Assembly (NCBI GenBank): GCA_946402415.1 | Contig: CAMIWK010000008.1 | Coordinates: 1-32,450 of the forward strand | Reading direction: 5' to 3' | Source of the DNA: an uncultured Fibrobacter sp. | GTDB lineage: Bacteria; Fibrobacterota; Fibrobacteria; Fibrobacterales; Fibrobacteraceae | Length of the DNA stretch: 32,450 nucleotides | In this document: positions 325 through 30,286 of the stretch, piece after piece | Position numbering within the stretch: position 1 is the first letter of the stretch | Layout: the number at the start of each line of letters is the position of its first letter | Notes under the pieces: model-generated | Told to the model about the DNA's origin: nothing | Databases searched by the model: none | The model's input: the letters and a program-made list of their open reading frames with translations, nothing else | Position numbers and translations under genes: made by a program

Positions 325-1614
325 ATGAGCATTTCTATTCCTCAGTTGCCCAAGGGCACCCGCGATTTTTACCCGGAAGCGCAGCGCATCCAGAACTACA
401 TCTTTGACACTTGGCGGAGCACCGCCGAAAGTTTCGCCTACGAAGAATACGAAGGCCCCATGTTCGAGCATCTGGAGCTTTATACGGGCAAATCCGGCGA
501 AGAAATCGTTAGCCAGCTTTACAACTTTAAGGACAAGGGCGACCGCGAAATCGCGCTCCGCCCCGAAATGACCCCGACCCTTGCCCGCCTGGTCATCCAG
601 AAGGCCCGCGAACTGAAGAAACCCTTCAAGTGGTTCAGCATGCCCCGCCTTTTCCGTTACGAAAAGGCACAGAAGGGTCGCCTCCGGGAATTCTTCCAGC
701 TGAACATGGACATTATCGGCACCGAAAGCATCTACGCCGAGGCCGACCTGATGGCAGCCATCGCCACCATGCTCCGCAAGTTCGGCCTCAAGGATGGCGA
801 ATTTGCCATTGGCGTTTCCAGTCGGAAGCTCTTGGCCACCTACCTGGAGGAAATCGGCGCCCCGAACCCCTCGCTGGTGTACCCGGTGCTTGACCGTCGC
901 TTAAAAATCGGGCCCGAGGCATTCGCCAAAGCCCTGGCCGAAGCCGGTCTTACCGAAGACCAGGTGAAAAAGCTCGACGACTTCATGAGCTGCAAGTCCA
1001 TCGAAGAAGTCAAAACCAGAGTGCACAGCGAAAACGCAACGGCAGCCCTCGCCGAAATAGAAGACCTGTTCGCAACGCTTACCGCTGCAGGTTACGGCGA
1101 ATGCGTGAACCTGGACCTGAGTATTGTCCGCGGTCTCGCCTACTACACCGGCATCGTGTTCGAAGTCTTCGACAAGGGTAAATCCATGCGCGCTATCGCT
1201 GGCGGTGGCCGTTATGACAGCCTCACCGAAAAGCTGGGTGGCGAACGCATCCCGGGCGTGGGCTTTGGCATGGGCGACGTGGTTCTCGCAGACCTCCTCG
1301 CCGAACACAAGCTGCTCCCCAGCCCCAAGCAGAGCGTAGACTTCTACATCGCAAGCTTTACAAACGATATGAAGAAGGTATTTGAGACCGCCCAGGCATT
1401 CCGCAACGCAAGTTCCGGCAAGCCCTTCTCGGTGGCTCACCCCCTCGCCGCCATGAAAATGGGCAAGCAGCTGGACCAGGCCAACTACCAGGGCGCCAAG
1501 ATTGTCGTGTACGTCGACGGTTCCAAAGCTGCCGCCGGAGAATTCGAATACAAGGACATGCGTACCGGCGAAATGTTCGTGGGCAATATGGATGCGATTG
1601 TAGAACGTCTATGA
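325..1614 (+). CDS. hisS: Histidine--tRNA ligase
   Basis: Charges tRNA-His with histidine in the cytoplasm. The 429-residue length is normal for bacterial HisRS. Class II motifs are visible: RPEMTPTLAR at 79-88, the motif 2 loop RLFRYEKAQKGRLREFF at 108-124, the histidine-binding motif RGLAYYTG at 269-276, and GGGRYD at 293-298. The C-terminal region from about 335 is the anticodon-binding domain. The ATG at 325 has no obvious Shine-Dalgarno; a TAAATT hexamer lies only 10 bases before it (309-314), so the transcript may have a very short leader. The stop overlaps the ATG of the next gene (ATGA at 1611-1614), so a housekeeping synthetase appears to be translationally coupled to an envelope glycan-modification cluster. 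Confidence 0.97.
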   Translation: MSISIPQLPKGTRDFYPEAQRIQNYIFDTWRSTAESFAYEEYEGPMFEHLELYTGKSGEEIVSQLYNFKDKGDREIALRPEMTPTLARLVIQKARELKKPFKWFSMPRLFRYEKAQKGRLREFFQLNMDIIGTESIYAEADLMAAIATMLRKFGLKDGEFAIGVSSRKLLATYLEEIGAPNPSLVYPVLDRRLKIGPEAFAKALAEAGLTEDQVKKLDDFMSCKSIEEVKTRVHSENATAALAEIEDLFATLTAAGYGECVNLDLSIVRGLAYYTGIVFEVFDKGKSMRAIAGGGRYDSLTEKLGGERIPGVGFGMGDVVLADLLAEHKLLPSPKQSVDFYIASFTNDMKKVFETAQAFRNASSGKPFSVAHPLAAMKMGKQLDQANYQGAKIVVYVDGSKAAAGEFEYKDMRTGEMFVGNMDAIVERL

Positions 1615-3194
1615 TGTCTCCTCTCAAAGTCCTCCTCTCCATCATCAGCCTGTTCGTGGTCCTCGCCATCGTGGCTGTAGTCTACCCTGACGGTGGAATC
1701 AAGGTGGCAAACGTGACGCTCCGCTACCCGAAGCTCACCGACATCTTCGAAAAGAAGTCCCCCAAGGACTCCACCGCCGATTCTGCTGCGGTGGACCCCG
1801 AAGAAGCCATCCGCGAGATGATGGAGGCAACCAAGCGCAAGGAATTCGCCGCCTACAGCGACTCCCTCAAGTATTACGAGGACTTTTTTAAGGAAGGTAA
1901 GACACGATTCGACCTGCCAAACGACGATCCCACCTGGTTCGACAGGTTCTTCTTGCACCTGCAGCTGGCGGAGCTGGATTCCAACGTGGTCCACATCGTC
2001 CACTACGGTGATTCCCAGCTAGAAGAGGACCGCATATCGGCTACCATCCGCGAAGACCTGCAGCAGGAATTCGGCGGAGCGGGCCCCGGCATGATGCCGC
2101 CTATCCTTACCATTCCCTCCCAGACCACAAGCCACTGGAACGAGGGCGAACTCAAGCGCTATATTCTTTTCGGACCTAAAGAAGAAGAGGCGGACCACAA
2201 CCGCTACGGTCCTCTGGCACAGTTCGCCGACCTAGAAGGCTCCGCCGTCATCGGCATCAAGAAACGTGAAGACCGCAAGAACACCTTCCCCCATGTTGGA
2301 GGCTACTCTACGATAAAAGTCCTCGCCGGCAAGCGTGGAGCCCTGCGGCTCAGGCTGGTCTACCAGCGCACCTACAGGGACACCGTAGGCCTTAACGAAG
2401 ACAGCACCTTCAAGGTAAAGACCCGCACCGTATTCGAAACCGCTGCCGCCCCCGAGGTGGAACGCCTTACCAGGCTCAATGTCTACACCTGGAAACTTCC
2501 CGACACCACTTCCAACGCCAAGATCTATCTGGACGGAACCGCCGAAATCTACGCCATCTCCGCAGACGGGGCCTACGGCGTAGCCGTGGACAACGTAGCC
2601 ATGCGCGGTTCTTCGGGCACAGTCTTCCATCGCATTGATTCCGAACTTCTGGCCGAATCCTACAAGGCCATGAACGCACGGCTCATCATCATGGAGTACG
2701 GCGGCAACCTGGTGCCCGGCACTAACAGCAGCAATGTAGACTGGACCAAGAAGCTCATTACCAAGCAGATTCTCGCCATCCAGAAGGCGAACCCCGATGC
2801 TGACATTCTGTTCATCGGCCCCGCCGATATGGCTAAGCAGGTGGATGGCGAATGGAAAACATACCCGGGCCTAGCCCTTACCGTCAAGACCCTCCGGGAG
2901 GTAGCCCTAGAAAACGGCGCTGCCTACTGGGATATGCACCGAGTGATGGGCGGGAACGGCTCCATGATCAAGTGGGCTAACCGCGAACCTGCTCTCGGCT
3001 TTACCGACCACATCCACTTTACCCGCAGGGGCGCGGCCTACATGGGAGACCTGTTCTGCTCGGCACTGCGTATGCACTACGACTACTTCAAGTTCCGGGA
3101 CCGTCACGGCCTCAACGACGAGAAGATGAAAGAACTGCAGCAGTGGAAAGAAGATGCCGCAACTAAACCGGATTCAGGAGAAGTCAATCCATGA
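1611..3194 (+). CDS. Membrane-anchored SGNH/GDSL hydrolase-like protein (glycan acylation cluster)
   Basis: Protein of 527 residues with one N-terminal membrane segment (about residues 4-25) acting as anchor or uncleaved signal, so the bulk is probably periplasmic. SGNH hydrolase blocks are visible: block I HYGDSQ with nucleophile candidate Ser135, a block III-like YGGN at 363-366, and block V DHIHF with Asp466 and His469. A charged, Ser-rich spacer follows the membrane segment. It overlaps hisS by 4 bases and the next gene by 4 bases (ATGA at 3191-3194), which implies coupled translation. The following protein shares the same architecture (H-x-G-x-S-x-L near the start; GSM-x-KW, D-x-[IV]-HF and GDLF near the end), so the two are probably an old tandem duplication. 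In known MBOAT loci, SGNH partners such as AlgJ/AlgX, DltD or PatB transfer or remove acetyl groups on exported polymers; the substrate here is unknown. Confidence 0.8.
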   Translation: MMSPLKVLLSIISLFVVLAIVAVVYPDGGIKVANVTLRYPKLTDIFEKKSPKDSTADSAAVDPEEAIREMMEATKRKEFAAYSDSLKYYEDFFKEGKTRFDLPNDDPTWFDRFFLHLQLAELDSNVVHIVHYGDSQLEEDRISATIREDLQQEFGGAGPGMMPPILTIPSQTTSHWNEGELKRYILFGPKEEEADHNRYGPLAQFADLEGSAVIGIKKREDRKNTFPHVGGYSTIKVLAGKRGALRLRLVYQRTYRDTVGLNEDSTFKVKTRTVFETAAAPEVERLTRLNVYTWKLPDTTSNAKIYLDGTAEIYAISADGAYGVAVDNVAMRGSSGTVFHRIDSELLAESYKAMNARLIIMEYGGNLVPGTNSSNVDWTKKLITKQILAIQKANPDADILFIGPADMAKQVDGEWKTYPGLALTVKTLREVALENGAAYWDMHRVMGGNGSMIKWANREPALGFTDHIHFTRRGAAYMGDLFCSALRMHYDYFKFRDRHGLNDEKMKELQQWKEDAATKPDSGEVNP

Positions 3195-4966
3195 TCCGCC
3201 TACTCCTCATCGTTGCCTTCGCAGCACTTTCGACTTTTGCAAAGGACCTGACCATTGCCCCTGGCAGCTATAGTCTGGACCTTACCAAGTACGATTTCAT
3301 CGACACCACCGTAAACGTCATCCAGTTCCCCAAAGGAAACGAAGCATTCACCCCCTTCTTCAACAAGATGGACACCCTGGTGTTCGAAAACAAGGGGCAG
3401 GTGCGAATCATGCACGTGGGAGGCTCCCACCTGCAGGCAGACGTCATCTCGGGCCGTATCCGCGAACATATGATCAAGGAATACCCCGGGGCTTCTGCAG
3501 GTCGAGGATTCATATTCCCCTATTCCGCAGCCCGCACCAACACACCCTCCAGCTACGCCAGCTACTACAAGGGCATCTGGGACAAGAACAAGAACGTGCA
3601 GCGCGAAATTTCAAAGCCTCTGGGCCTGCTTGGCATCGCCGTCAGCACCAGCGACCCCCGCGCCGAGATCACCCTGATGCTGGACAAGTACAACTCCGCA
3701 CCCATCTGGGGCGAGACCCGCTTCCGTCTGTTCGGCTACAGCGACAACAACGACGTAGTTCCCGTGCTGCGGGTAGATTCCACCGACATCTATGGAGTTC
3801 ACGACACCGTAAGCCAGAGCTACGTGTTCACGAGCCCCCGGCCCATCGATACCATCCAGATTCAATTCCGTTGGGTGGATTCACTTAAGCAAGCCACCGT
3901 AGCACAGTTCATCAACGATTCACTCCTACAAGATTCCATCGCAAGGGCTGATTCTTTAAAGACGGATTCCCTAAAGAAGGATTCGCTGAGCAAAGATTCC
4001 CTAAAGAAAAATGGCAACGACACGAGCAAGGTTGAAAAAGCGAAGATTCCGGCCAACGTTTTGAACCTGCAGAACGCACAGCTGCAGAATGCACAACCGG
4101 CCCTGGATTCCATGTTCCAGGGAGAATGCGACGTTCTGGATACCGCCTGCATCGCCCGAGAAGAAGCCAAGAATAAGGACACTACCGTCAACAGCAGGTG
4201 TGCCGAACTGGCCGCCAAGAAGGCGGACATCAATTACGAAGAAGGGGAACAGGACCCCACCAATAACCCTGATGACCACTGCTTCACGGAGCCTGCCGCC
4301 GTGCCGGATTCCGTCAAGAAGAACGCCCGTCCCCATTTTACCTTGACAGGCATTCTTTCCGAGAACGACGCCCCGGGCATCATCTATACCAACGTGGGAA
4401 TCAACGGGGCGAAAGTCCACGACTATTTCGAAGAAGTGTGTCCGCTTTTCGAGAAGGAGATGGAATACTTCAAACCCGACCTGGTGATTTTCGCCATCGG
4501 TATCAACGATGCCAACGTGCAGCGCTTTAACGACAAGCAGTTCCGCGAAGATTACGACAAGTTGATTGAGCGCTTCAAGAAGGTGAATCCCAACGTGGCC
4601 TTTATCTTCGAGACCAACAACGACATGTTCCGCAAGATCAAGCGGAAAAAGTTCGTGCAGCATGGGAACGGCGAAGTGGCACGCAAGTCTTTCTTTATGC
4701 TGGCTGATAAGCACAAGGCCGGCGTCTGGGACAAGTTTAGCATCATGGGCGGCCTAGGTTCCATGGCCAAGTGGGAGCGTGCAAGCCTTGCCAAGAAGGA
4801 CAAGGTCCATTTCAACCTCACCGGCTACAACCTCTTGGGAGACCTGTTCTACAAGGCCCTCATCCAGGCCTACCAGGACCACATTGCCAATCTGCCCGCC
4901 CAGACTAAGTCAGAGAACAAACCGACTGCTCAACAGGCAACAAAAGATGAGAGAGGTAATAAGTAA
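3191..4966 (+). CDS. Secreted SGNH hydrolase-like protein with altered block I
   Basis: Protein of 591 residues with a signal peptide (about residues 1-17, cut near FAKD). It is a paralogue of the preceding gene. Block I reads HVGGSHLQAD, so the usual GDS Asp is Gly while Ser79 is kept; block III is clear as GIND with Asn439; block V KDKVHF provides Asp537 and His540. A triad Ser79-Asp537-His540 is therefore still possible. Between the N-terminal lobe and the GIND lobe sits a low-complexity insert with four tandem five-residue units (residues 254-273), followed by a linker with five cysteines. It is translationally coupled to the upstream gene and lies 5 bp before the MBOAT gene. Likely role: periplasmic acyltransfer or esterase step on an exported glycan. 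The esterase or transferase activity is inference. Confidence 0.77.
   Translation: MIRLLLIVAFAALSTFAKDLTIAPGSYSLDLTKYDFIDTTVNVIQFPKGNEAFTPFFNKMDTLVFENKGQVRIMHVGGSHLQADVISGRIREHMIKEYPGASAGRGFIFPYSAARTNTPSSYASYYKGIWDKNKNVQREISKPLGLLGIAVSTSDPRAEITLMLDKYNSAPIWGETRFRLFGYSDNNDVVPVLRVDSTDIYGVHDTVSQSYVFTSPRPIDTIQIQFRWVDSLKQATVAQFINDSLLQDSIARADSLKTDSLKKDSLSKDSLKKNGNDTSKVEKAKIPANVLNLQNAQLQNAQPALDSMFQGECDVLDTACIAREEAKNKDTTVNSRCAELAAKKADINYEEGEQDPTNNPDDHCFTEPAAVPDSVKKNARPHFTLTGILSENDAPGIIYTNVGINGAKVHDYFEEVCPLFEKEMEYFKPDLVIFAIGINDANVQRFNDKQFREDYDKLIERFKKVNPNVAFIFETNNDMFRKIKRKKFVQHGNGEVARKSFFMLADKHKAGVWDKFSIMGGLGSMAKWERASLAKKDKVHFNLTGYNLLGDLFYKALIQAYQDHIANLPAQTKSENKPTAQQATKDERGNK
3950..4009 (+). repeat. 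Four tandem DSLKK-type pentapeptide repeats
   Basis: Inside the second SGNH-like gene, residues 254-273 consist of four 15-bp units encoding DSLKT, DSLKK, DSLSK and DSLKK. Looser DSL/DSI units occur just upstream. The block is strongly charged and predicted to be extended or helical linker. Copy number could vary between strains. Confidence 0.85.
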
Positions 4967-4971
4967 ACATC

Positions 4972-6822
4972 ATGCTTGACTACTTAATCCCCTACCTCAC
5001 TCGTACTTTTTCGTTTGACCCCAACAGTCCACTGCTGTTCACGCAGTTCTATTTCTGGGGATTTTTTGCCGTCGTATTTGCGATGCTCACCCTGGTCAAG
5101 AACCGCATCCTGCTCCGCAACGCCTTCTTGTTTGCCACCAGCATGTTCTTCTATTACAAGACCAGCGGAAGCTACGTGTGCATTCTCGTGTTCTGCGTGG
5201 TGGCGAACTTCTTTATCGGCAAGTGGATCGAAAAGGCCGAACAGCACTGGAAAAAGAAGCTCTGGATGATTATCATCGTCATCATCGACCTTCTGGTGCT
5301 ATGCTACTACAAGTATTCCTATTTCTTCCTGGACGCCCTCCGCGACTTTACCGGAATTGAGCTTCATGTCTACAACTTCTTCGCCGCAGCATCTAACAAG
5401 ATGTTCGGCACCAACTCCCTAGTAGATACCATTATCCTGCCGGTGGGTATTTCTTTCTTCACGTTCCAGGCCATCAGCTACTGCATTGACATCTACCGTG
5501 GAAAGATCAAGGCCGTCACCAACATTTTGAACTTTGGTTTCTACCTGACCTTCTTCCCGCAACTTGTAGCGGGCCCCATTGTGCGTGCCGACAAGTTCGT
5601 ACCCCAGCTCTACAAGAAGTATTTCCTCCCCCGCCGCACTTTCGGCATCGCCGTGTTCTGGGTGCTGAACGGTCTAGCCAAAAAGATTATTCTGAGTGAT
5701 TACCTGGCCACCAACTTTGTGGACCGTGTGTTCGATACACCTCTGCTGTTTACTGGCCTTGAAAACCTGATTGCCCTTTTCGCCTATTCCCTGCAGGTCT
5801 ATGCCGACTTCTCGGGCTATACCGACATCGCCATCGGCGTGGCACTCCTCATGGGATTCAGACTGCCACAAAACTTTAACAGTCCCTACAAGGCACTCAG
5901 CCCTACAGAATTCTGGCGTCGCTGGCATATCAGCCTTTCCAGCTGGTGGCGCGACTACCTGTACATTCCTCTGGGTGGTAACCGCGGAGCCTCTGTAGGC
6001 ACCTTCTTCTGGATGGGATTCCTGAGCCTCGTGGCCATTCTCCTTTCTGGGAGCATCTGGGTAGGCATAGCGCTTGGCGTATTCTTCCTCTACATCGCCA
6101 TCTACGCCTACATCAAGCCGGAATCCCGCAAGTTTATTACCACCAACATGAACGCTATGGCGACCCAAGTCGTAGGAGGTTGGTGGCATGGCGCCAGCTG
6201 GAACTTCATCATCTGGGGTGGCCTCAATGGTTTCGGCCAGGTATTCAACAAGATCTGGGTCAAGCGTGGCCCCGGATTCCGCGCCTCTGTATCCCTGCTA
6301 TTCTTTGCTATCAGCGCCATCATCTACAAGCACCTGCACACCCCCATCTGCGCCATTACCGCCGTATGGTTCGGCGTTTTGTTCCTCGGCATCTACAGCG
6401 TCATGCTGTTCCGGCTGTTTAGCGACAAAACCTTCCACTGGCTCTATACCGCCTGGAACGTGACACTTACCTTCGTGTTCATCACCTTCACCCGCCTCTT
6501 CTTCCGCGCAGGCTCTAATTTGGACCCGGCTGAGGCCAACGAAGTGGCCTGGAATACGGCCAAGAATATGATTAACCAGATGGGTACTGCCTGGAAATGG
6601 GACAACTTGGGCACCATCGCCTGGGAACACATCAACATCATTTTGGTGTTCATCGCAGGCATGCTCATCCACTGGATTCCCAAGAAGTTCAAGAGCCGCT
6701 ACCGGATTATGTTCGCCTCGCAGCCCTTACCGCTAATGGTATTTACCACGGCGTTTATCATCTTCGTGATCTACCAGTTCATGAGCGCGGACAGCTGCCC
6801 GTTCATCTACTTCCAGTTCTAG
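4972..6822 (+). CDS. MBOAT-family membrane O-acyltransferase (AlgI/DltB-like)
   Basis: Polytopic inner-membrane protein of 616 residues, somewhat longer than AlgI (about 520). Hallmarks: YADFSGYTDIAIG; the block FWRRWHISLSSWWRDYLYIP with His319, followed by LGGNRG; and WWHGASWNFIIWGGLNG carrying the invariant MBOAT His406. Extra length lies partly in an additional hydrophobic segment between these two blocks. MBOAT proteins of this class pass acyl groups, usually acetyl, from a cytoplasmic donor to an extracytoplasmic acceptor or to an SGNH partner. The ATG at 4972 lies 5 bp after the previous stop, with GAGAGG at 4951-4956 as a somewhat distant ribosome site. Context with two SGNH-like proteins supports an O-acylation system for a surface glycan. 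The acceptor cannot be named from this window. Confidence 0.92.
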   Translation: MLDYLIPYLTRTFSFDPNSPLLFTQFYFWGFFAVVFAMLTLVKNRILLRNAFLFATSMFFYYKTSGSYVCILVFCVVANFFIGKWIEKAEQHWKKKLWMIIIVIIDLLVLCYYKYSYFFLDALRDFTGIELHVYNFFAAASNKMFGTNSLVDTIILPVGISFFTFQAISYCIDIYRGKIKAVTNILNFGFYLTFFPQLVAGPIVRADKFVPQLYKKYFLPRRTFGIAVFWVLNGLAKKIILSDYLATNFVDRVFDTPLLFTGLENLIALFAYSLQVYADFSGYTDIAIGVALLMGFRLPQNFNSPYKALSPTEFWRRWHISLSSWWRDYLYIPLGGNRGASVGTFFWMGFLSLVAILLSGSIWVGIALGVFFLYIAIYAYIKPESRKFITTNMNAMATQVVGGWWHGASWNFIIWGGLNGFGQVFNKIWVKRGPGFRASVSLLFFAISAIIYKHLHTPICAITAVWFGVLFLGIYSVMLFRLFSDKTFHWLYTAWNVTLTFVFITFTRLFFRAGSNLDPAEANEVAWNTAKNMINQMGTAWKWDNLGTIAWEHINIILVFIAGMLIHWIPKKFKSRYRIMFASQPLPLMVFTTAFIIFVIYQFMSADSCPFIYFQF

Positions 6823-9199: not shown

Positions 9200-12100
9200 T
9201 TGAAGAATCGAACTTCGACATTCCTTAAGCCCGCCGTCATCACGACGGCGATCGTGGGTGTATTGGCTCTATGCACCTGGTTGTCGGACTATTTACTCGA
9301 TGTGTTCCTTTCGAGCCCTCACAGCTTTGGTTCCATAGAAATTTCACCCCACGGACACCGACAAGACGGCTACCTGACCCATCATTGGGACTCTCTCGCC
9401 ATCAGGACAGGAGAAAACACCTTTGTCCTGCGAAACACGGATCTAGACATCACCCTGTTCCAAGAGAGCAGGAACATCCAGCTACATACTGACGAAATCA
9501 ACGCAAGCATTTCTTCTGCAGGGCCGCCAAAGGAAAAGAATGTGGAGACGGACCTTTCACCGCCCTCACTGCCGGAACACGCCAAATTCTATGTGCCGGT
9601 AAATATCGGCGTCGGAAAACTCACAGTGGACCTGGATTCCAGTAAACACTGGGAGGCTAAAGACATTTCTCTAAAGAGCGAGGGCTCCTCCAAAGCCCGG
9701 TTCAACGCTGACAGCATCAAGGGCGACTTTGTCAAGCACCCGGCCAAGGTAGCCGTATCCCTTGATTTCCAGTCAGAACAAATCAAGATGAAGGGCAAGG
9801 TAGTGGCAGGCCCCGATTCTATCGCTGTTGACGCAACGACCTCCAAGAACAACTTGGCGGCAGTCTCTACTACGACCTCCCTAGACGTGAAGAAGGTGGA
9901 GGATTGGCTCCCTGTGAAGATACCCAAGGGAGCTCCGACCATCGGTAAACTTCACGTGCAGACCAAGGCAAGCCTACACCCCAAGACCGGCAAGCCCAAT
10001 TACGACGTCACCATCAAGACCCGCATAGGAGAGTTCTGGCCCCTAATGCCCTTGAACGCCACCATTCGGGTTAAGGGTGACCAGAAAAAATTCCATTCTG
10101 ACGTTCTGCTGCAAAACAATGAAGGCGGATCCATACGGCTAGCAGCAGATATGGACATGAAGCTAAACGGGACTCTAAGCGGCAAAGTGGAAAAGATGAG
10201 CGCCGAGTTCGGCCCGCAGATGATGCCCCTAGACATGACCATCCATTCCGCAGAAAAGAGGGGCAACAAGATAACGGCAAAAGTCGAAACCAGACAGGGC
10301 TCCGTAGTCGAGGCAAACATCGACCTGGACAGCGACATTCCTGTCACTTACACCGGAGACATGTCGCCCCTTGAACCTTGGGCTCTGGACTGGACAAAGG
10401 GACAGCTCGTCCTCAAGGAGCGGTTCAAGGTCTATGGAACCGTCTTTGACGGAAAGACCCGCATTTTTGTCAAGATTCCGAACGTAGAATATGCGTACCA
10501 GATGAAGGCCGATTCACTGCAGACGGTACTGCTCATCGACAAGCATGGCATCGATTTCTCAAAGGGCATTATCTACACGCCCAAGGAAACTTTTGACTTC
10601 ACAGGCGATGTGGTCTGGGATGAACCCGCACCCCACACCTCCTGGAACGTAACCCAACGGCATGGCGGTAGCGCCACGGCATACGTGTCTATCATAGACT
10701 CCACCACCATCAGCGTCACCGCCGACCAAGTCGAAATTTCCACCATACCCTTTGCCACCATGAAGGTGAACGAAGCGCTGAACGGAAAAATTTCTGGACA
10801 ATGGACACAAAATTTTGACACCAACGTGGGACAAGCCTCCGCAAGCTTCGATGGAAACTTTGACCCCTACAGCCTAAAGGGAAATATTTCCGCAAGGCAA
10901 AACGGAGACACCATCTTCATCGACAAGGCCGAAGCAATCCAAAGCCAGAACAAGGTCCAGGGCGAGGCCATCTTCATCTTGCCAAACGATTCCAACCCCG
11001 AGTTCATGCCGACGGGTATGCTTCCCATACAGGTGGTACATGCCTGGGCCGCATCTGAAAAGTTCAACATTCCGTTGTTGCTCGATCCTATCAACGACAC
11101 AACATTCACATCGGGCTTTATCAACGGTGACATTGCCTTCGAAGAAAAGATAGGTCTACAAGGAAACATTGAGTTTACCGACATAGAATTCAGCAAGGTG
11201 CCTTCTTACCTGTTCAACATCAAGAAGATGAACCTCTTTGCCGAAGGCAGTAAGATAGAACTGAATGCCTATCTGGGAATCGGAGGTGGCGGATGGACCG
11301 GAACCACCCAGGTCACCCTAGACAACATATTCGATGACAAGCGCCATATCAGCCTGTCACATAGTACCGACAACGGTGGAAACCTGTGGGCAGAAGGATT
11401 TATCGATACCTCCCTAGTGTTTGAAGGCAACGTGAACATGAATGGTTCCTGGTTTATCCCAGGTACAGTCAGTGAAATCAAGAAGACCGATTTGCAAATT
11501 GCCCTCATCGCCAAAATACGCGAAGGGATAAACGGTATCACGGCGGATCTACAGACTGATTCCACATTCTATCAGCCACCAAAGATGAACTACATGTTCC
11601 CGCTACGGGCCAGAGGCCATCTAGAGAAGGGCCTCTTGAATATCACCGAGGCTTCGACCCAAAATGACAGTGCTGAAACCATTTCGGGTACATTGATGTT
11701 TGACCTGAACAAGATGCAGTTACAGGGTATAGACCTGCAATCCGAAAAGTACACCATCCGGACAAAATACCACACCCTGGTTCTTGAAAACATTTCCAGC
11801 CATATGATAGACAACAACGATGCCCTTGTCATCTCAACGGAACTGCCATCTATCCAATACCTATTCAATCACGAATCCTATGGAGATGCCGAGGTGCGCG
11901 GTCAAGGAGATATCCGGTTTGTCATCCCACACTCTATAGACGGACTCATCAAGAACAAGAGCATCGAAGGAAATGTCTTCGTAGACAAGGCGGTCTATAA
12001 GAAAGACCTGGAAATCGAAGTCACACCCAATTCCCTTGACAAGATTTTGGCAATGTTCAATAACGCCATCACCAAATTGCGCAAGACCGAAAACAAAGAA

Positions 12101-13099
12101 GCCAAGATTTCTTCTGCAAGTCCCATCAACCTGTCCGTTCACGTTATGGACACCCAGAGGGACTCTATCGAAATTCTTTCCCCATTTGCAGCATTCCCCT
12201 TCACCTTTGACGTTTGGGTTCTAGGAAACACCAACAGGCCCCTATTGCGTGGCGATGTCACCAACTCCAACGCGGGCTTCATCGGTGTAAAGGACGTCTA
12301 TAATTTCGACCTGAATTATTTCCGCATCAGCTGGTCCGATGTGCCCTGGCAAAAGGGTGTGTTTGACGTCTCCAGTTCTCAGGAGCTCCCCTACTGTACA
12401 GAAACGGAAGAAAACCAGAACGAAACTTGTCCCATCAACCTCGACATACAGGGGACCCTCACCAATCCGCAAGCCAATCCCAACTCCAACTGTGGACGGG
12501 AATCTAGCGCAGCCGCAATTTACTACAATATATTCCTTGGTTGTATCGCAGACGACACAGATGAAAATACAGACTGGAACAAGCTTGCTGGAAAGGCTAT
12601 CGGTAAATTCCTATCCTCTACGGCCAACAGGACCCTTGGAGGAGACTATATCGGCGACATTGATATGAAGGTGATGCTATTCAACAGCAATACATCTAAC
12701 GAAAGGGATTCCAGCTACTTCAAGGTTCCCGTATCTCTGGACCGCTGGGTCAAGGACCTGAGCCTCATCTTTGGTTACACCCAGGACCAAAGCGAGAACC
12801 CCACATACGACCAGGCTTTGCAATTCGGCGTAAACTACACACTCCCCGTATTCCGCGAAAAAGAATACTCACACAAGAACCACATCAACCCAACCCTCTC
12901 TCTGAGCGGACTGCTAGTATCAAAGCAATACCTGACCAATACCGGTACAGAGGGTAACGAAAACCGCATCGAAAAGAATGTGGGTATCAACTACACCTAC
13001 AGGTACTGGAATCCATGCCTCCTTGGAATTGGAAACTGCGAAACGATTACGCCTCCAAAAGAGGCTGAGCAAAAAGAAGAAAAAGGAGGGCGGCCATGA
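9200..13099 (+). CDS. tamB: TamB-like translocation/assembly module protein (AsmA/DUF490 type)
   Basis: Protein of 1299 residues, close to E. coli TamB length. One N-terminal membrane helix (about 10-32) anchors a very long beta-rich periplasmic body with many short alternating segments, ending in a conserved C-terminal region (about 950-1290) with the LRGDVTNSNAGFIGV-type strand pattern seen in TamB/DUF490. Such proteins bridge inner and outer membrane and act in lipid transport or outer-membrane protein assembly. The gene overlaps the following Omp85 gene by 4 bases (ATGA), the classic TamB-TamA pairing with order reversed relative to E. coli. The only plausible start is TTG at 9200: no in-frame ATG or GTG lies upstream after the stop at 9131, and later starts would cut the membrane helix. 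The C-terminus carries a charged KEAEQKEEKGG tail. Family assignment is good; the exact partner function is inferred. Confidence 0.82.
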   Translation: MKNRTSTFLKPAVITTAIVGVLALCTWLSDYLLDVFLSSPHSFGSIEISPHGHRQDGYLTHHWDSLAIRTGENTFVLRNTDLDITLFQESRNIQLHTDEINASISSAGPPKEKNVETDLSPPSLPEHAKFYVPVNIGVGKLTVDLDSSKHWEAKDISLKSEGSSKARFNADSIKGDFVKHPAKVAVSLDFQSEQIKMKGKVVAGPDSIAVDATTSKNNLAAVSTTTSLDVKKVEDWLPVKIPKGAPTIGKLHVQTKASLHPKTGKPNYDVTIKTRIGEFWPLMPLNATIRVKGDQKKFHSDVLLQNNEGGSIRLAADMDMKLNGTLSGKVEKMSAEFGPQMMPLDMTIHSAEKRGNKITAKVETRQGSVVEANIDLDSDIPVTYTGDMSPLEPWALDWTKGQLVLKERFKVYGTVFDGKTRIFVKIPNVEYAYQMKADSLQTVLLIDKHGIDFSKGIIYTPKETFDFTGDVVWDEPAPHTSWNVTQRHGGSATAYVSIIDSTTISVTADQVEISTIPFATMKVNEALNGKISGQWTQNFDTNVGQASASFDGNFDPYSLKGNISARQNGDTIFIDKAEAIQSQNKVQGEAIFILPNDSNPEFMPTGMLPIQVVHAWAASEKFNIPLLLDPINDTTFTSGFINGDIAFEEKIGLQGNIEFTDIEFSKVPSYLFNIKKMNLFAEGSKIELNAYLGIGGGGWTGTTQVTLDNIFDDKRHISLSHSTDNGGNLWAEGFIDTSLVFEGNVNMNGSWFIPGTVSEIKKTDLQIALIAKIREGINGITADLQTDSTFYQPPKMNYMFPLRARGHLEKGLLNITEASTQNDSAETISGTLMFDLNKMQLQGIDLQSEKYTIRTKYHTLVLENISSHMIDNNDALVISTELPSIQYLFNHESYGDAEVRGQGDIRFVIPHSIDGLIKNKSIEGNVFVDKAVYKKDLEIEVTPNSLDKILAMFNNAITKLRKTENKEAKISSASPINLSVHVMDTQRDSIEILSPFAAFPFTFDVWVLGNTNRPLLRGDVTNSNAGFIGVKDVYNFDLNYFRISWSDVPWQKGVFDVSSSQELPYCTETEENQNETCPINLDIQGTLTNPQANPNSNCGRESSAAAIYYNIFLGCIADDTDENTDWNKLAGKAIGKFLSSTANRTLGGDYIGDIDMKVMLFNSNTSNERDSSYFKVPVSLDRWVKDLSLIFGYTQDQSENPTYDQALQFGVNYTLPVFREKEYSHKNHINPTLSLSGLLVSKQYLTNTGTEGNENRIEKNVGINYTYRYWNPCLLGIGNCETITPPKEAEQKEEKGGRP

Positions 13100-15003
13100 A
13101 GAAAATTGTAGTGCTGTTGTTCGCTCTCGCCTCGTTCCTTTTTGCCGAAGAAGGGGTAAAGCACCCCTGGTATATGAGTTTTGACGGAAACCAGGTGTTC
13201 TCCAATTACCAGCTAGAAGAACAGCTGGACATTCCCGAAGAATTCGGACGTCTGGATACCACCAAGCAGGACTTTTTGATGCGTCTATCTCTTGAAAACG
13301 TCAAGGCCCTTTATTACTCCAAGGGTTATTTCAGTCTAGACCTGAAAATGGACATCAAGCGCGAATACCTGGCACAGGACAGCATTCAAACAGGCTACCT
13401 GTTTACCTTGTCCGAAGGGGAAAGATACCGATTTGCAGGAACTATCCTAAAAATGCCCCAGACCGATAGCGTTGAGATTGATACATCTTCATTGAATACA
13501 TCTCAGGACCGCGTATTTGAAGATAACGACATTGCCGAAGACCTTCAATACATACAGACAACCTTCCGCAAGGCGGGTTACCTGCACGTCTATTTAGACC
13601 ATCTTGAAAAAATCGACACCCTCGCAAAGAAAATTTTTGTAGAAATCACTGTACAGCCCGGTGCCAAAGTAATCATGGGCAACATTACCAGTTCCGCCAA
13701 GAGAATCGGAGACCGAAGGGATAAGGAACACCAGCAAGAAACGGGACTCACGGACACCGCATGGTTATCCTCCCTATGGAAAATCCCGCAAGGAGAAACT
13801 ATTGATGGTAACCAGTACAACTCCTTCAAGAACAAGCTCTTTTCAACACAGATGTTCACCCAGATCAAGATGAGCGACTCCCTACGAGAAGATGGGCTAT
13901 CAGACGTGCATCTGGATGTAACCGAACGCGTTCCCGGAGAAGCCCGCTACGGTTTCTTCTACGAAGAGATTTACGGTTTCGGTGCACAGGCATACGCCAA
14001 GCACAAAAATTTTATCGGACATTTCCACGAATTTTCCACCGGTTTCCAAGTCGCGCAACACAAGCAGGAATTTTCCGTAGGTTATGCAAACCCGCTCCTG
14101 TTCGGAACATCATTCTCCTTCATTCCTACAGCCATACGCTTTGAGGACCGCCTTAGTTTCAACCACGAGAAGATTAACCCGCCCGCCTACCCCGACAGCA
14201 TAGAAGAGCGTTACGAAGTCATCAACCGTGCAGACCTTACCTTTGGAATCACCAGCCACATCAGATTCCGCGGAACCATTGACTCACGCTATGTCAACAG
14301 GAACGAAGACAAACTCCTGAAACAGAAACAGGAAATCGCCCTGACATTCGACTTTACCGATGATTACTTCAATCCCACAAAGGGTATACGACTAGCCCCC
14401 ACATTCGGCATGGGCCTAAACCTTACTGCTTCTCTGGACAACCCCACCATGATCGGTAATCCCTATACCTACTCCGAAGGAACTGTCAACCTTTATCACC
14501 CCCTGTTCTGGACTTTCTACGGAGCTGTCAGCGGAAGCGTGGGTAAATTCTTCAACTCGGCTCTAGAAGATGATGCCCGAGTATTCTATCAGGGCGGTTC
14601 CCGTTCCGTACGCGGTTACCGGTTTAGAAGTATCTACGCCAGCTACACCACACAGGAACCTGTCAAAAAGGCCGATGGCACAGTGGTAGAAAAAGAAGTC
14701 ATCAACACGGGCCTCACCCCTCTCTACTATCGTTTCAATCAGGAAATACGCTGGAAAATTCCTATCAAGTCTTGGAACCGCTGGCAAATCGTGCAGTTCT
14801 TCGACTGGGCCAAGGTTATGGATGAGGAAAGCGACCTTTATATCGAGGAATCCGACGCAAGTTTTGGCCTGGGTATCCGCTACCACTGGCAGTTCTTGAC
14901 ATTCCGCCTAGATTACGCCATCAACAAGAAGATGAAAAATATTGGACAGTGGGAAAACTTCGCCTGGAGCAGGTTTGCCTTCGACCTTTCCCAGGCTTTC
15001 TAG
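13096..15003 (+). CDS. Omp85-family outer-membrane protein (TamA/BamA type)
   Basis: Protein of 635 residues with a signal peptide (about 1-17, cut after FLFA). The N-terminal 230 residues hold POTRA-like units; the remainder is a 16-strand-type Omp85 barrel. The conserved loop-6 motif is present as GGSRSVRGYRF with Arg506, and the protein ends in Phe with alternating hydrophobic residues, the expected beta-signal. Length is nearer TamA (577) than BamA (about 800). AAGGAGG lies 6-12 bases before the ATG, inside the end of tamB, with which it overlaps by 4 bases. Together they suggest a TamAB-like complex for outer-membrane assembly. Its stop is only 6 bp from the stop of the convergent ABC gene, so the two transcripts must overlap at their 3' ends. 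Confidence 0.88.
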   Translation: MKKIVVLLFALASFLFAEEGVKHPWYMSFDGNQVFSNYQLEEQLDIPEEFGRLDTTKQDFLMRLSLENVKALYYSKGYFSLDLKMDIKREYLAQDSIQTGYLFTLSEGERYRFAGTILKMPQTDSVEIDTSSLNTSQDRVFEDNDIAEDLQYIQTTFRKAGYLHVYLDHLEKIDTLAKKIFVEITVQPGAKVIMGNITSSAKRIGDRRDKEHQQETGLTDTAWLSSLWKIPQGETIDGNQYNSFKNKLFSTQMFTQIKMSDSLREDGLSDVHLDVTERVPGEARYGFFYEEIYGFGAQAYAKHKNFIGHFHEFSTGFQVAQHKQEFSVGYANPLLFGTSFSFIPTAIRFEDRLSFNHEKINPPAYPDSIEERYEVINRADLTFGITSHIRFRGTIDSRYVNRNEDKLLKQKQEIALTFDFTDDYFNPTKGIRLAPTFGMGLNLTASLDNPTMIGNPYTYSEGTVNLYHPLFWTFYGAVSGSVGKFFNSALEDDARVFYQGGSRSVRGYRFRSIYASYTTQEPVKKADGTVVEKEVINTGLTPLYYRFNQEIRWKIPIKSWNRWQIVQFFDWAKVMDEESDLYIEESDASFGLGIRYHWQFLTFRLDYAINKKMKNIGQWENFAWSRFAFDLSQAF

Positions 15004-25048: not shown

Positions 25049-28000
25049 TCAGCTATTTACGCCCATTTTCAGCAAATAACCGCCCTGGCTACCGCCTGTG
25101 GGGCCTAATTCCACCGCCCAGTCCGCCATACGGATAATATCCGGGTGGTGCTCGATGACAATTAGGGTGTTTCCACGGGCCGACAGACGGCGAAGTAAGT
25201 TCCAAAGAACCTGGACATCCTTCAGGTGGAGCCCCGTGGTAGGCTCATCCAGCAGGTAGACCATCTCCCCCGCCGTTTTCCGTGAAAGTTCCGCTGCCAG
25301 CTTGAGCCTCTGGGACTCGCCGCCCGAAAGGGTGGTGACGGGCTGGCCCAGCCTCAGGTACCCAAGGCCCACATCCCGCAGACATTCCAGCTTGGGCAAG
25401 ATTTTCGGCTGGTCCTTGAAGAACTCGCAGGCCTCGTCGATACGCAGGTCCAGAACATCAGCGATGTTTTTGCCCTTGAAAGTAACCGTAAGGGTTTCCT
25501 GGTTGTAACGTTTGCCGCCGCAGACTTCGCAGGTTTCCCAGATGTCCGAAAGGAAATGCATTTCCACCGATATGGCGCCGCGACCCTCGCAGGCCTCGCA
25601 GCGGCCACGGGCAATGTTGTAGCTGAAACGGCCGTAATCGAAGCCCTTGGCCTTTGCCTGTGGCAGTTTGGCGAAGAGCTTGCGGATGTCGTCAAATACG
25701 CCCGTGTAGCTCGCGGGCGTGCTGCGAGGCGTTCCCGAGATGGGGCTCTGGTCCACCAACAGCACCTCACCGCTCTGTTTTTTGCGGCCTCGGGCCTGGA
25801 ACTTCTTTTTCAAGGCCGGGTAGATTTCATCCACCACCATGGAACTCTTGCCCGAGCCGGACACGCCACAGACCACGCTGATGGCGCCCTTCGGAAACCG
25901 AACGGAAAGGTTTTTCAGGTTGTTCTTCTTGAGTCCCTTGAATTCATAGAATTCGGAATCATCCGTTACGGGGCGGACACCTATCTGGTTTGTCACGGGA
26001 ATAGAGCCCGTCAGATACTTGACGGTCTCGCTCCGAGGGAACTGCTGCAAGGCATAAGGCTTGGAAAGCTGACTTGGAGAACCTTCCGCCACCACTTCGC
26101 CACCGAATTCACCTGCCGCAGGGCCCATGTCGATGATGTGGTCTGCCGCCTTCATCATCTTCATATCGTGCTCCACCACCACCAGGGTGTTTCCCAAGTC
26201 CCGCAGGCGATAAAGGGAATCCAGCAACTTGGCGGTATCGCTTTCGTGGAGGCCAACCGTAGGCTCGTCCAGAACGTACAGCACTCCTTCAAGGCCGCTA
26301 CCAATCTGGCTTGCCAAGCGAATACGCTGGGACTCGCCGCCGCTAAGGGTGTCGCCTGCACGGTCAAGACCAATGTAGCCAAGACCCACACTGATGAGGA
26401 ATTCCAGACGGCCGATGATTTCACGGAACAGGGGTTCCGCCACCATCTTTTTGCTTTCGCCGTTCTTTTCGCCCTTGAAATTCACATGGGTGAACCAATC
26501 TAAAGCTTCGGCAATGCTCATGCGGTGGACATCCATAATGTTCTTGCCCGCGATACGCACGGCAAGGTATTCGGGCTTGAGCCTTTCCCCGTGGCAATCA
26601 GGGCAGACTTCGCCATCCTTGAAATGTCCAAGACCAAGGCAGGTATCGCAGGCGCCCCAGTGGGTATTGAAACTGAAATGCTTGGGATTGAGGGCAGAAT
26701 CCATGTACCAGCCGCAATCGGGGCAACCCGGCTTTTCGGAACAGGCGAGGCGTCCGCCCTTTTCGTCTTCTACGTACAGGATTCCGTTGCCGTCACGGTA
26801 GCCCCGTTCAAAGGCCTCTACCAGACGGGCACGGTTGGATTCCTTGACCACCACAGAATCCACTACGGCGAGCACCTGACGCTCCCGTGTGGGAACCTTC
26901 GGCAGCGGAAGCTCCACCAGCTTTTTGCCCAGGTAAGCCTTGCGGTATCCCTTTTCCGTCAAAATTTTAGACAACTTAACCTCATCCTTGATTTCGAAGG
27001 GAGCAAGGACCGTCACCATCTTGTTCAGGTCACGGTCAAAGGCATACTGCATCAGGTCACCCGCGGAGTACGAATCCACGGGTTTCCCGCAATGCAAGCA
27101 ATGCGGTGTGCCGACCCTCGCCCACAAAATGCGGAAATAGTCGTAAATCTCGGTGAGGGTCGCCACCGTACTCCGCGGACTCTTGCTCGCGCTTTTCTGG
27201 TCGATGGCGATAGCCGGGGCAAGTCCCGTGATGGAATCGATGCTCCCGTGGTCGGGGCGGCCAAGGAAGCGACGGGCGTAAGTACTGAGGGTTTCTACAA
27301 AACGGCGCTGGCCTTCGCTGAACAGGGTATGGAATGCCAGGCTGGACTTGCCGGAGCCCGAAACTCCGGTGATTACCGTAAGCTTGTGGCGCGGAATGGT
27401 CACATCGATATTCTTCAGGTTGTGCTTGCGGGCGCCGTGCACCTCCATATCCAGGGAGTAAGCCTCCCCCGCCTTGAGAGACCTGTCGAACTGCTTGTTC
27501 TCCCCATGCTTTTTCGAGAGTACAGGTGCCAGGTATTTGCCGGTCTGGCTTTTCTTGTTCTTTGCAATCTGCTCCGGAGTGCCTACGGCCACGATGCGTC
27601 CGCCGCCTACACCGGCCTCAGGCCCTAAATCAATAATCCAGTCGGCGCACTTGATGACATCTAGGTTGTGCTCAATGACCACCACGCTGTTGCCAAGGCC
27701 ACGCAGGCGGTTCAGGCATTCCAAAAGCCTGCGGATATCTTCAAAGTGCAAGCCCGTCGTCGGCTCGTCGAGCAGGTAAAGCGTCTTGCCCGTACCCGGG
27801 CGACGCAGTTCCGAAGCAATCTTGATGCGCTGGGCCTCGCCGCCGCTGAGGGTGGTAGAAGGCTGGCCAAGCGTCAGGTAACCCAGGCCCACTTCCTTGA
27901 GCAGGTTCAAGGGTTCCGCAATTTTCGGCAGGTCCTTGAAAAATTCTGCCGCATCGGCAATGCTCATTTCCAGAATTTCGGAAATATTCTTGCCCTTGAA

Positions 28001-30286
28001 ATAGATTTCCCGGGTGGCATCGTTAAAACGCTTGCCGTCGCAGACATCGCAGGTCACCTGCACACTGGGCAAAATGTGCATATCTACCACTTTTACGCCC
28101 GCCCCTTCGCAAGCGTCACAGCGACCGCCCTTCACGTTAAAGCTGAAACGGCTCTTGGTGTAGCCACGGACCTTGCTTTCGGGCAGGCTACCGAACAGGT
28201 CGCGGATATCGTCCCAAATTTTCGTGTAGGTCGCCGGATTGCTCCGGGGCGTGCGACCGATAGGTGTCTGGTCAATTTCAATCACCTTGTCGATGTTCTC
28301 AAGACCTTCCAGGTGGTCGAACTTGCCCACCGGTTCTTCGGAATTGTAGAACACCCGGGCAAGTTCACGACGCAGAATCTGGTTCACGAGAGTACTCTTG
28401 CCGGAGCCGGAGACGCCGGTGACCACGGTAAAGGCACCATCCAGCGGGATTTCCACGTCGATGTTCTTCAGGTTGTTTTCGGACGCGCCACAGATTTTCA
28501 GCTTGTGGGTATTCTTGTCTATCTTCTTGCGGTTTGCCGGAATCTCGATGGCCTTGCGACCGCTCAGGTAGGCGCCCGTAAGCGAAGACTTGTTCTTTTC
28601 CAGCTCCTCCACCGTGCCCGCCGCCAAAATCCGGCCGCCCTCTACGCCAGCGCCGGGCCCTACGTCTATGACGCAGTCGGCGTGACGCATGGTGTCTTCA
28701 TCGTGCTCCACGATGACCAGGCTGTTGCCCTGGGCACGGAGGTGCTCCAGCATTTCCAGGAGCTTGTCGTTATCCCGCGGGTGGAGTCCGATACTGGGTT
28801 CATCTAGAATGTAAAGCACCCCCTGAAGCCCAGCTCCCACGGCGCTTGCCAAGCGAATACGCTGAGCTTCGCCGCCGCTCAGGGTAGAAGCCTTGCGGCT
28901 GATGTTCAGGTACCCGAGCCCCACCGTCTTCAAGAAGTTCAGACGGCCACGGATTTCGCGGAAGATTTCCTTGCCTATTCGCAGTTCCTTTTCGGAAAGC
29001 TTCAAGCCGTTGAAAAAGTCGGCGGACTTGTCCACAGACCATTCCGTAAGTTCGGTAAGATTATGGCCATGGAATTCAACCGCATTGGCCGTGCGGTTGA
29101 TGCGTGTCCCTCCACATTCGGGGCAAACGCCGATCTTCATGAACTTGCGGAAATGGAAGATGTGCCACATGTCCCACAATTCCTGCATCACGGAGACCAC
29201 GCCGTTCTCGTTACCGCTAGGCGGGCCGTACAAGAAGGCGTGACGCTGCTTTTCGGTCAGCTTTTTCCAGGGAGTATCCAGGGAGCAGTGCATCTCGTTG
29301 GCGATAGTCCGCAAGTTCCGCCAGCCAAAATCAGAAAAGATAATCGTGCCCGTGTCCTTCTTTTGGCAAGCAAAACAGCCCTGCTTGATAGAAAGGTTCG
29401 GGTCGGGCACTACCAGGTTCAGGTCGAACTCGCAACTTTCCCCCATGCCCTTGCAGGCGGGGCAGCGACCTTTCGGGTCATTAAAGCTGAAGAATCGCGG
29501 TTCCAGTTCTGGAATGGAAATTCCGCACTTGGGGCAGGCAAGCTCCGTACCCTGCAGGCGGTATTCTTCATTCAATAAAAAACTCACCAGTTTTCCGTCG
29601 GTCAGCTTAAGCGCCCCTTCCAGGGCCTCACGCAGGCGGCTCATGTTCTTGCGTTCCAGCGTCAGGCGGTCTATGACAGCCTCGATGGTGTGCTTCTCGT
29701 AACGCACCAGCGCCGGAACATCTTCAAGCCTGTAAATCACGCCATCCACACGGGCACGGACAAAGCCATCTTCCTTAAGTTCCGAAAGTTCCTTGCGGTA
29801 TTCACCCTTGCGCTCCTGCACGATGGGGGCCATCACCGTGATCTGCTTGCCCTCATCGCTCACGTACAGGTTATCCACAATCTGATCCACCGTCTGGGCC
29901 TTGATGACACGTCCACACTTGGGGCAATGGGGCACACCCAGGCGGGCAAAAAGTAGACGGTAATGGTCCAGGATTTCTACCACCGTTCCCACCGTTGAGC
30001 GAGGGTTCCTGTTCACCGTCTTCTGGTCAATGGAAATGGTTGGCGAAATGCCGCGGACACTTTCCACCTCGGGGTGTTTCATGCGGCCGATAAACTGGCG
30101 GGCGTACGCCGACAGCGATTCAACAAAACGGCGCTGGCCCTCCTGAAACACCGTATCAAAGGCAAGGCTGGACTTGCCCGAACCCGAAACGCCGGTCACC
30201 ACCACGATAGAATCGCGGGGAATTTTCAAATCTACATGTTGCAGGTTGTGTTCGTGGGCGTCGCGGATATCAATAAACTTGGTCAT
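25049..30286 (-). CDS. uvrA: Tandem-fused UvrA, excinuclease ABC subunit A (four ATPase cassettes)
   Basis: Damage-recognition ATPase of nucleotide excision repair, here 1745 residues instead of about 940. Four Walker A motifs are visible (Lys38, Lys630, Lys980, Lys1480) and four signature motifs (three [18 protein letters not shown], one LSGGESQRL), so two UvrA copies are joined head to tail. Copy one (about 1-945) is full-size, with a normal UvrB-binding region ([20 protein letters not shown]) and zinc modules [13 protein letters not shown] and CDACEGAG...CDVCDGKR. Copy two (about 950-1745) is shorter and more diverged, particularly in the UvrB-binding region, but keeps [13 protein letters not shown] and CEACEGRG...CEVCGGKR. 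All P-loops look intact. Similar double-length UvrA proteins are known in Chlamydia and some other phyla. No strong Shine-Dalgarno before the ATG; a promoter lies 25 bases upstream. Confidence 0.96.

Follow-up and report, generated by a model that had tools for sequence, protein, structure and literature searches.

A Bacteroides-type cluster of two Ape1-like SGNH proteins and an MBOAT in Fibrobacter, proposed to O-acetylate peptidoglycan

Introduction

A three-gene locus of an uncultured rumen Fibrobacter sp., encoding two proteins of the SGNH type and one MBOAT (designated here SGNH1, SGNH2 and MBOAT), raises the question of which exported polymer these proteins would modify, and of which SGNH protein would transfer and which would remove the acyl group. 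The locus lies in a stretch of 32,450 nt (GCA_946402415.1, contig CAMIWK010000008.1, positions 1-32,450, forward strand), analysed at its whole length and referred to as the window. The initial annotation had placed at 1611-6822 an SGNH-SGNH-MBOAT cluster with ATGA overlaps or a 5-bp gap, and had taken it for a candidate new system acting on an unnamed surface polymer. The coordinates proved exact and the domains were detected, but the novelty of the system was not sustained, given the Ape1 architecture of both SGNH proteins and the match to ape1b-ape1c-pat, the peptidoglycan O-acetylation (OAP) cluster of Bacteroides and Porphyromonas (Weadge, Pfeffer and Clarke 2005; PMC1199599). With modest confidence, we lean towards identifying the Fibrobacter locus as a Bacteroides-type OAP cluster in which SGNH1 acts as transferase and SGNH2 as esterase.

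Results

SGNH1 (1611..3194, 527 amino acids), SGNH2 (3191..4966, 591 amino acids) and MBOAT (4972..6822, 616 amino acids) follow each other on the + strand, as do all the features of these genes given below; SGNH1 and SGNH2 overlap by an ATGA at 3191-3194, and MBOAT begins 5 bp past SGNH2. A survey of gene neighbours revealed that the genes stay together, the three of them being present on a single contig in 24 of 25 Fibrobacter genomes, and SGNH1 and SGNH2 co-occur in every Fibrobacter genome having either one. The ratios of nonsynonymous to synonymous substitution rates (dN/dS) against a sister species were 0.066, 0.065 and 0.066 for SGNH1, SGNH2 and MBOAT, respectively, and all three genes are under strong purifying selection. 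Linkage in nearly all genomes, these dN/dS values and the invariance of the catalytic residues exclude a chance layout. In 16 genomes of other families in the class or phylum, SGNH1 was absent and two very weak partial matches only were obtained for SGNH2; within the genomes sampled there, the cluster is limited to Fibrobacter and near relatives.

In both SGNH proteins, all that Pfam detects is a generic GDSL domain within the C-terminal third, PF13472 (SGNH/GDSL) being over the cut-off in SGNH2 (E 6.7e-10) and at its edge in SGNH1 (E 1.4e-7, 32.7 vs 32.9 bits). For both proteins the top PDB sequence matches were Ape1 of Neisseria meningitidis (NmApe1) and Campylobacter jejuni (CjApe1), and in profile searches against PDB NmApe1 (4k3u) ranked first (E 9.7e-24 for SGNH1 and 3.4e-30 for SGNH2). 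The SGNH fold, for which the initial annotation had advised structure prediction, was present in both models. The AlphaFold model of SGNH1 matched NmApe1 with a Z-score of 27.0 over 333 of 349 residues (root-mean-square deviation, rmsd, 3.4) and CjApe1 (8gld) with Z 25.6, the next-best entry after Ape1 being C. jejuni PatB (Z 13.9 over 189 residues). The SGNH2 model, with a mean predicted local distance difference test score (pLDDT) of 79.0, matched NmApe1 with Z 36.4 over 348 of 350 residues (rmsd 2.9) and PatB with 14.6 over 185 residues; its next-best fold after Ape1 was a CBM35 mannan esterase. The next-best entries of the two proteins cover just ~185-210 residues. Because the models match Ape1 over its whole length, both SGNH proteins are predicted to have the Ape1 layout, consisting of block I, an inserted CBM35-like beta-sandwich, and blocks II, III and V. 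Ape1 is therefore a closer comparator than AlgJ, AlgX or DltD, which had been put forward earlier, and a new SGNH family or an unidentified fold was discarded.

The catalytic residues were examined in alignments of Fibrobacter SGNH1, SGNH2 and MBOAT (A1, A2 and A3) and in the same alignments widened with Bacteroidales (A4, A5 and A6). In both SGNH proteins the Ser, the block II Gly, the block III Asn, the Asp and the His are invariant in the Fibrobacter as well as in the wider alignments. In SGNH1 they correspond to catalytic Ser135 in block I HYGDSQ (2013..2015; invariant in A1 and A4), Gly333 of block II (2607..2609; invariant in A4), an esterase-type residue that aligns with the GINGA Gly of Ape1, Asn366 of block III (GGN, 2706..2708; invariant in A4), and Asp466 and His469 of the block V sequence Asp466-His-Ile-His469 (3006..3017). 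Their counterparts in SGNH2 are catalytic Ser79 in GGSH (3425..3427; invariant in A2 and A5), Gly406 of block II (GINGA, 4406..4408), Asn439 of block III (GIND, 4505..4507), and Asp537 and His540 of Asp537-Lys-Val-His540 (block V, 4799..4810). For Ape1 motif I, GDS(H/F), SGNH1 reads GDSQ and SGNH2 GGSH, and for motif VII, Dx(V/T)H, they read DHIH and DKVH, respectively. The GGSH form of SGNH2 block I (GASH in one homologue) is found throughout the closely related SGNH1-SGNH2-MBOAT loci, whereas classical Ape1 has GDSH, and GDSH is retained by the SGNH2-like proteins of a second arrangement, SGNH1-MBOAT-SGNH2. Neither the PatB block II substitution nor the hydrophobic wall residue (I/V before the block V His) separates transferase from esterase, since SGNH1, SGNH2 and Ape1 all have Gly at the first position and I/V at the second.

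The two proteins differ in their N-termini, one being anchored and the other secreted. SGNH1, the Ape1b-like protein and proposed O-acetyltransferase, has an N-terminal transmembrane anchor at residues 7-25 (1629..1685; 19-residue hydropathy 3.02), followed by a linker of ~100 amino acids and then the catalytic domain; across 69 homologues the anchor has a mean hydropathy of 2.7, and ~125 residues separate its start from the Ser. The inserted beta-rich domain of SGNH1, CBM35-like as in Ape1, was assigned to residues 173-320 (2127..2570) from the AlphaFold strands, and the alignment with Ape1 runs through it. SGNH2, Ape1c-like by position and the proposed O-acetylesterase, reads as a soluble secreted protein with a cleavable signal peptide at about residues 1-17 (3191..3241, STFA/KD), and its homologues have short signal peptides with AQ-type end sites. 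Its CBM35-like beta-sandwich (residues 102-228, 3494..3874) was modelled with pLDDT values mostly of 85-96, and a charged helix plus disordered stretch lies at residues 231-375 (3881..4315; pLDDT <50 for most). This last segment is variable in A2 and constitutes a Fibrobacter-specific filler, Bacteroidales orthologues of SGNH2 having ~414 amino acids versus 591 in Fibrobacter.

SGNH1 and SGNH2 are homologous, with 26% identity over 176 amino acids (E 5e-12), and each has its own full-length Bacteroidales orthologues at 31-41% identity. The initial annotation had read a tandem duplication from the end motifs shared by both proteins (MGGxGSMxKW, DxI/VHF and GDLF). These motifs are real, but they are largely present in Ape1 too and are Ape1-family signatures; the duplication thus holds in a remote sense only. 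SGNH1 and SGNH2 are ancient paralogues, and a recent tandem duplication was ruled out by the separate Bacteroidales orthologue group of each one.

The third gene encodes a PatA-type acyl exporter of a long, Bacteroidales-type MBOAT subfamily (PF03062, E 7.9e-18), DltB-like by NCBIfam and PDB matches, DltB being the nearest solved MBOAT. The putative catalytic His406 (WWHGASWN, 6187..6189) and the C-terminal acyl-shuttle hexapeptide FIYFQF with Tyr613 (6802..6819) are invariant in A3 and A6, and so across 18 Fibrobacterota and Bacteroidales MBOATs. FXYXXF is the motif of PatA/DltX; C. jejuni PatA auto-acetylates its Tyr from acetyl-CoA, and PatB then receives the acetyl group from the modified peptide (PMC12148441); the same acyl-shuttle chemistry would be expected in the Fibrobacter MBOAT. 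The MBOAT step and the SGNH folds are well grounded, and the O-acylation of an exported glycan, as initially annotated, is well supported. Most near-complete Fibrobacter genomes also have a second, shorter MBOAT of 472 amino acids (PF03062, E 2.1e-26) that ends NPFLYFQF and has no obvious SGNH partner adjoining it (L230:6346-7764, L231:6518-7936, L232:5568-6986).

When named genomes were scanned using the MBOAT alignment, the Fibrobacter loci came first and then Bacteroidales, with 54-58% full-length identity. The order SGNH1-SGNH2-MBOAT was found in 27 of 32 named Bacteroidota loci, with genes mostly overlapping or almost touching, and the remaining five were rearranged or ended by a contig edge. 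In a quick maximum-likelihood tree, a single quick method, the Fibrobacter MBOATs formed one clade within Bacteroidales (Shimodaira-Hasegawa-like approximate likelihood ratio test, SH-aLRT, 97-100), which suggests that the cluster came to Fibrobacter by transfer from Bacteroidales. Co-occurrence of the three genes was surveyed in 148 Bacteroidota genomes, revealing three arrangements: SGNH1-SGNH2-MBOAT; SGNH1-MBOAT-SGNH2, whose MBOAT ends PIYLQF or similar; and an SGNH1-like protein with MBOAT and without SGNH2. Every genome with a clear SGNH2 (~16 of the 148) also has SGNH1, none having SGNH2 alone, and ~13 lack SGNH2 but have an SGNH1-like protein together with this MBOAT type. In front of SGNH1, the genomes without SGNH2 commonly carry a short secreted SGNH (PF13472, E 4.5e-19 to 1.6e-24 in the three tested).

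Two further features were observed. Some Bacteroidota clusters have, between the SGNH1-like gene and MBOAT, a gene resembling AMP-binding acyl-CoA ligases (L200:8751-10511, L201:8467-10194, L202:8127-9860, L203:8066-9787, L206:7981-9705; PF00501 in two that were tested), whose product could provide acyl groups different from acetyl. Two loci (L194:7252-10217, L195:7239-10204) have two MBOAT genes in tandem, each with a QPFIYFQF end, downstream of a single SGNH1-like gene.

Upstream of the cluster, hisS (325..1614, + strand) encodes a histidyl-tRNA synthetase (PF13393, E 6.1e-43) whose stop shares an ATGA with the SGNH1 start at 1611-1614, the ATG at 1614 being an equally possible SGNH1 start. 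Of the 28 Fibrobacter loci scanned, some of them cut by contig ends, 25 have it upstream. hisS is probably on the same transcript as the cluster and is outside the acetylation pathway. On the other side, an HD-domain membrane protein (PF13487; 6840-9008, - strand) converges on the cluster; a homologue adjoins the cluster in two scanned loci only (L102 and L112) and thus does not count as a constant neighbour. No wall-synthesis genes lie beside the cluster. Elsewhere in the window, at 9200-15003, a 1299-amino acid protein that starts at a TTG and has no Pfam match overlaps a 635-amino acid Omp85-like protein, and both look like a divergent TamB/TamA pair. A single 1745-amino acid open reading frame at 25049-30286 (- strand) reads as two UvrA excinuclease proteins joined head to tail.

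Discussion

Peptidoglycan is the likely leading acceptor because both SGNH proteins are Ape1-like with a CBM35-like insert and the cluster matches ape1b-ape1c-pat; we infer acetyl as the acyl group. The guess made in the initial annotation, acyl transfer by one SGNH and removal by the other, is well supported, and the assignment of each role depends on the following observations. With the PatB family model PF04311 (DUF459), which was not calibrated here on known PatB sequences, SGNH2 reached 16.6 bits against a cut-off of 27.2, SGNH1 gave no match, and no protein of 28 genomes exceeded the cut-off, so that a PatB encoded away from the cluster was discarded. Since no PatB was found, an Ape1-type protein probably performs the transfer. 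SGNH1 is favoured because it has a PatB-like anchor and linker and is present wherever SGNH2 occurs in the surveyed Bacteroidota, and SGNH2 is favoured as esterase because it has a cleavable signal, as an esterase free in the periplasm would, and is often missing. Among other possible partners, a search of 9 Fibrobacter genomes for DltD-type proteins gave a single match over the cut-off, in G010 and unlinked, with no match inside the cluster itself, and AlgJ/AlgX-type partners did not appear in the fold lists, no family-model search for them having been made.

In the mechanism that we propose, the acetyl-Tyr peptide of MBOAT would pass acetyl to Ser135 of the membrane-anchored SGNH1, which would fill the role that PatB has in Neisseria and Campylobacter. 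Held to the wall by its CBM35-like insert, SGNH1 would transfer the acetyl group to a peptidoglycan hydroxyl, by analogy that of C6 of N-acetylmuramic acid. The soluble periplasmic SGNH2, bound to the wall by its own insert, would strip acetyl as Ape1 does, allowing autolysins and growth enzymes to act.

Several observations weigh against this reading. PatB has Ser or Asn, not Gly, at the block II position (PMC12148441), and both SGNH proteins have the esterase-typical Gly (Gly333 and Gly406), so that neither bears the known transferase mark. The SGNH1 model is of low confidence (mean pLDDT 65.5, active-site loops <50). In a few genomes (L172, L161, L163 and G179) it is SGNH2 that adjoins MBOAT, SGNH1 being elsewhere or inverted, so that adjacency becomes a weaker argument. 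What was drawn between cluster and peptidoglycan for Bacteroides in 2005 is a correlation; a literature search on B. thetaiotaomicron BT_2680-2682 (tags derived from accession offsets) returned nothing relevant. For Fibrobacter, the literature searched yielded neither biochemical work nor an analysis of peptidoglycan.

The same machinery might instead O-acetylate an envelope or capsular glycan other than peptidoglycan, an alternative that we consider unlikely. MBOAT/SGNH pairs with the same shuttle motif serve alginate, cellulose and secondary wall polysaccharides (PMC12148441), CBM35 modules are not specific to peptidoglycan (PMC9487903), SGNH2 has a CBM35 mannan esterase as its best fold match after Ape1, and the neighbours are hisS and the HD-domain protein instead of wall-synthesis genes. 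On the contrary, both SGNH proteins match Ape1 across its two-domain layout far above any other structure, the genus as a whole retains the cluster, usually downstream of hisS, and the glycan-synthesis operon expected beside a dedicated exopolysaccharide acetylase is not attached.

The roles of both SGNH proteins could also be reversed, with SGNH2 as the transferase taking acetyl from MBOAT and the anchored SGNH1 as the esterase. This would agree with the altered block I of SGNH2 (GGS/GAS, not GDS), in view of the GDSH of its counterparts in the SGNH1-MBOAT-SGNH2 arrangement, and with the position of its gene directly beside MBOAT in the triad, a pair kept in L172 and G179 with SGNH1 elsewhere. 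Nevertheless, SGNH2 is the soluble protein and the one nearer to the esterase Ape1 (Z 36.4), and ~13 genomes keep this MBOAT type and an SGNH1-like protein without SGNH2, which makes the exchange of roles improbable. These same genomes show that a two-step relay is not required. A forward transfer relay through both SGNH proteins, as in AlgJ/AlgX for alginate and with no esterase in the set, would be compatible with the full triad in each protein and with their joint presence in Fibrobacter; as both are of the Ape1 type in fold, we regard it as very unlikely.

Returning to a Bacteroides-type cluster with SGNH1 as transferase, we put forward, as a tentative idea that may or may not hold, that an anchored Ape1-type protein with a CBM35-like wall-binding insert replaced PatB as the peptidoglycan O-acetyltransferase in Fibrobacter and much of Bacteroidota. 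An esterase scaffold would have turned transferase, keeping the block II Gly and bringing a wall-binding module of its own that PatB lacks. The Bacteroides-type wall O-acetylation cluster would now extend to Fibrobacterota, and, as these clusters have a PatA-like exporter and no recognisable PatB, no protein appears to have been assigned as the transferase in a major gut bacterial group. Lysozymes and autolysins are blocked by wall O-acetylation, which therefore bears on survival in lysozyme-rich ruminant guts.

Among known systems, DltB-DltX-DltD, responsible for teichoic acid D-alanylation, and AlgI-AlgJ/AlgX, responsible for alginate acetylation, share with the Fibrobacter cluster an MBOAT plus SGNH and a C-terminal Tyr shuttle motif. 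They differ from it in that the three-gene cluster has no carrier protein or DltX microprotein and its SGNH proteins match Ape1 instead of DltD or AlgJ/AlgX. With patA-patB-ape1 of Neisseria and Campylobacter, it has in common one MBOAT with the FXYXXF shuttle and two periplasmic SGNH proteins, one anchored and one soluble of the Ape1 type, and the chemistry is expected to be identical. Only SGNH1 shares with PatB an N-terminal membrane anchor joined to the SGNH domain by a long linker, SGNH2 having a signal peptide. In contrast to that system, no DUF459/PatB protein was detected, both SGNH proteins are Ape1-like, and MBOAT is last, not first, with ~616 amino acids and extra segments.

The comparison with the OAP cluster of Bacteroides and Porphyromonas was made through its published description, which reports peptidoglycan O-acetylation of 69% in B. 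fragilis and 27% in B. thetaiotaomicron (PMC1199599). The Fibrobacter cluster differs in belonging to another phylum, in lying behind hisS and not a cation-efflux gene, and in the motif I of SGNH2, GGSH instead of GDS(H/F). Moreover, Ape1c was reported to be without a segment of ~100 amino acids after motif I (PMC1199599), whereas Fibrobacter SGNH2 has this segment, as an Ape1-like beta-sandwich, plus the disordered insert; SGNH2 would thus correspond to Ape1c by position and family and not by this feature. On the other hand, both clusters have the order SGNH-SGNH-MBOAT with MBOAT last, both SGNH proteins of each are of the Ape1 family, the reported cluster is likewise without an Ape2/PatB gene, and the nearest sequence relatives of the Fibrobacter genes are those of Bacteroidales.

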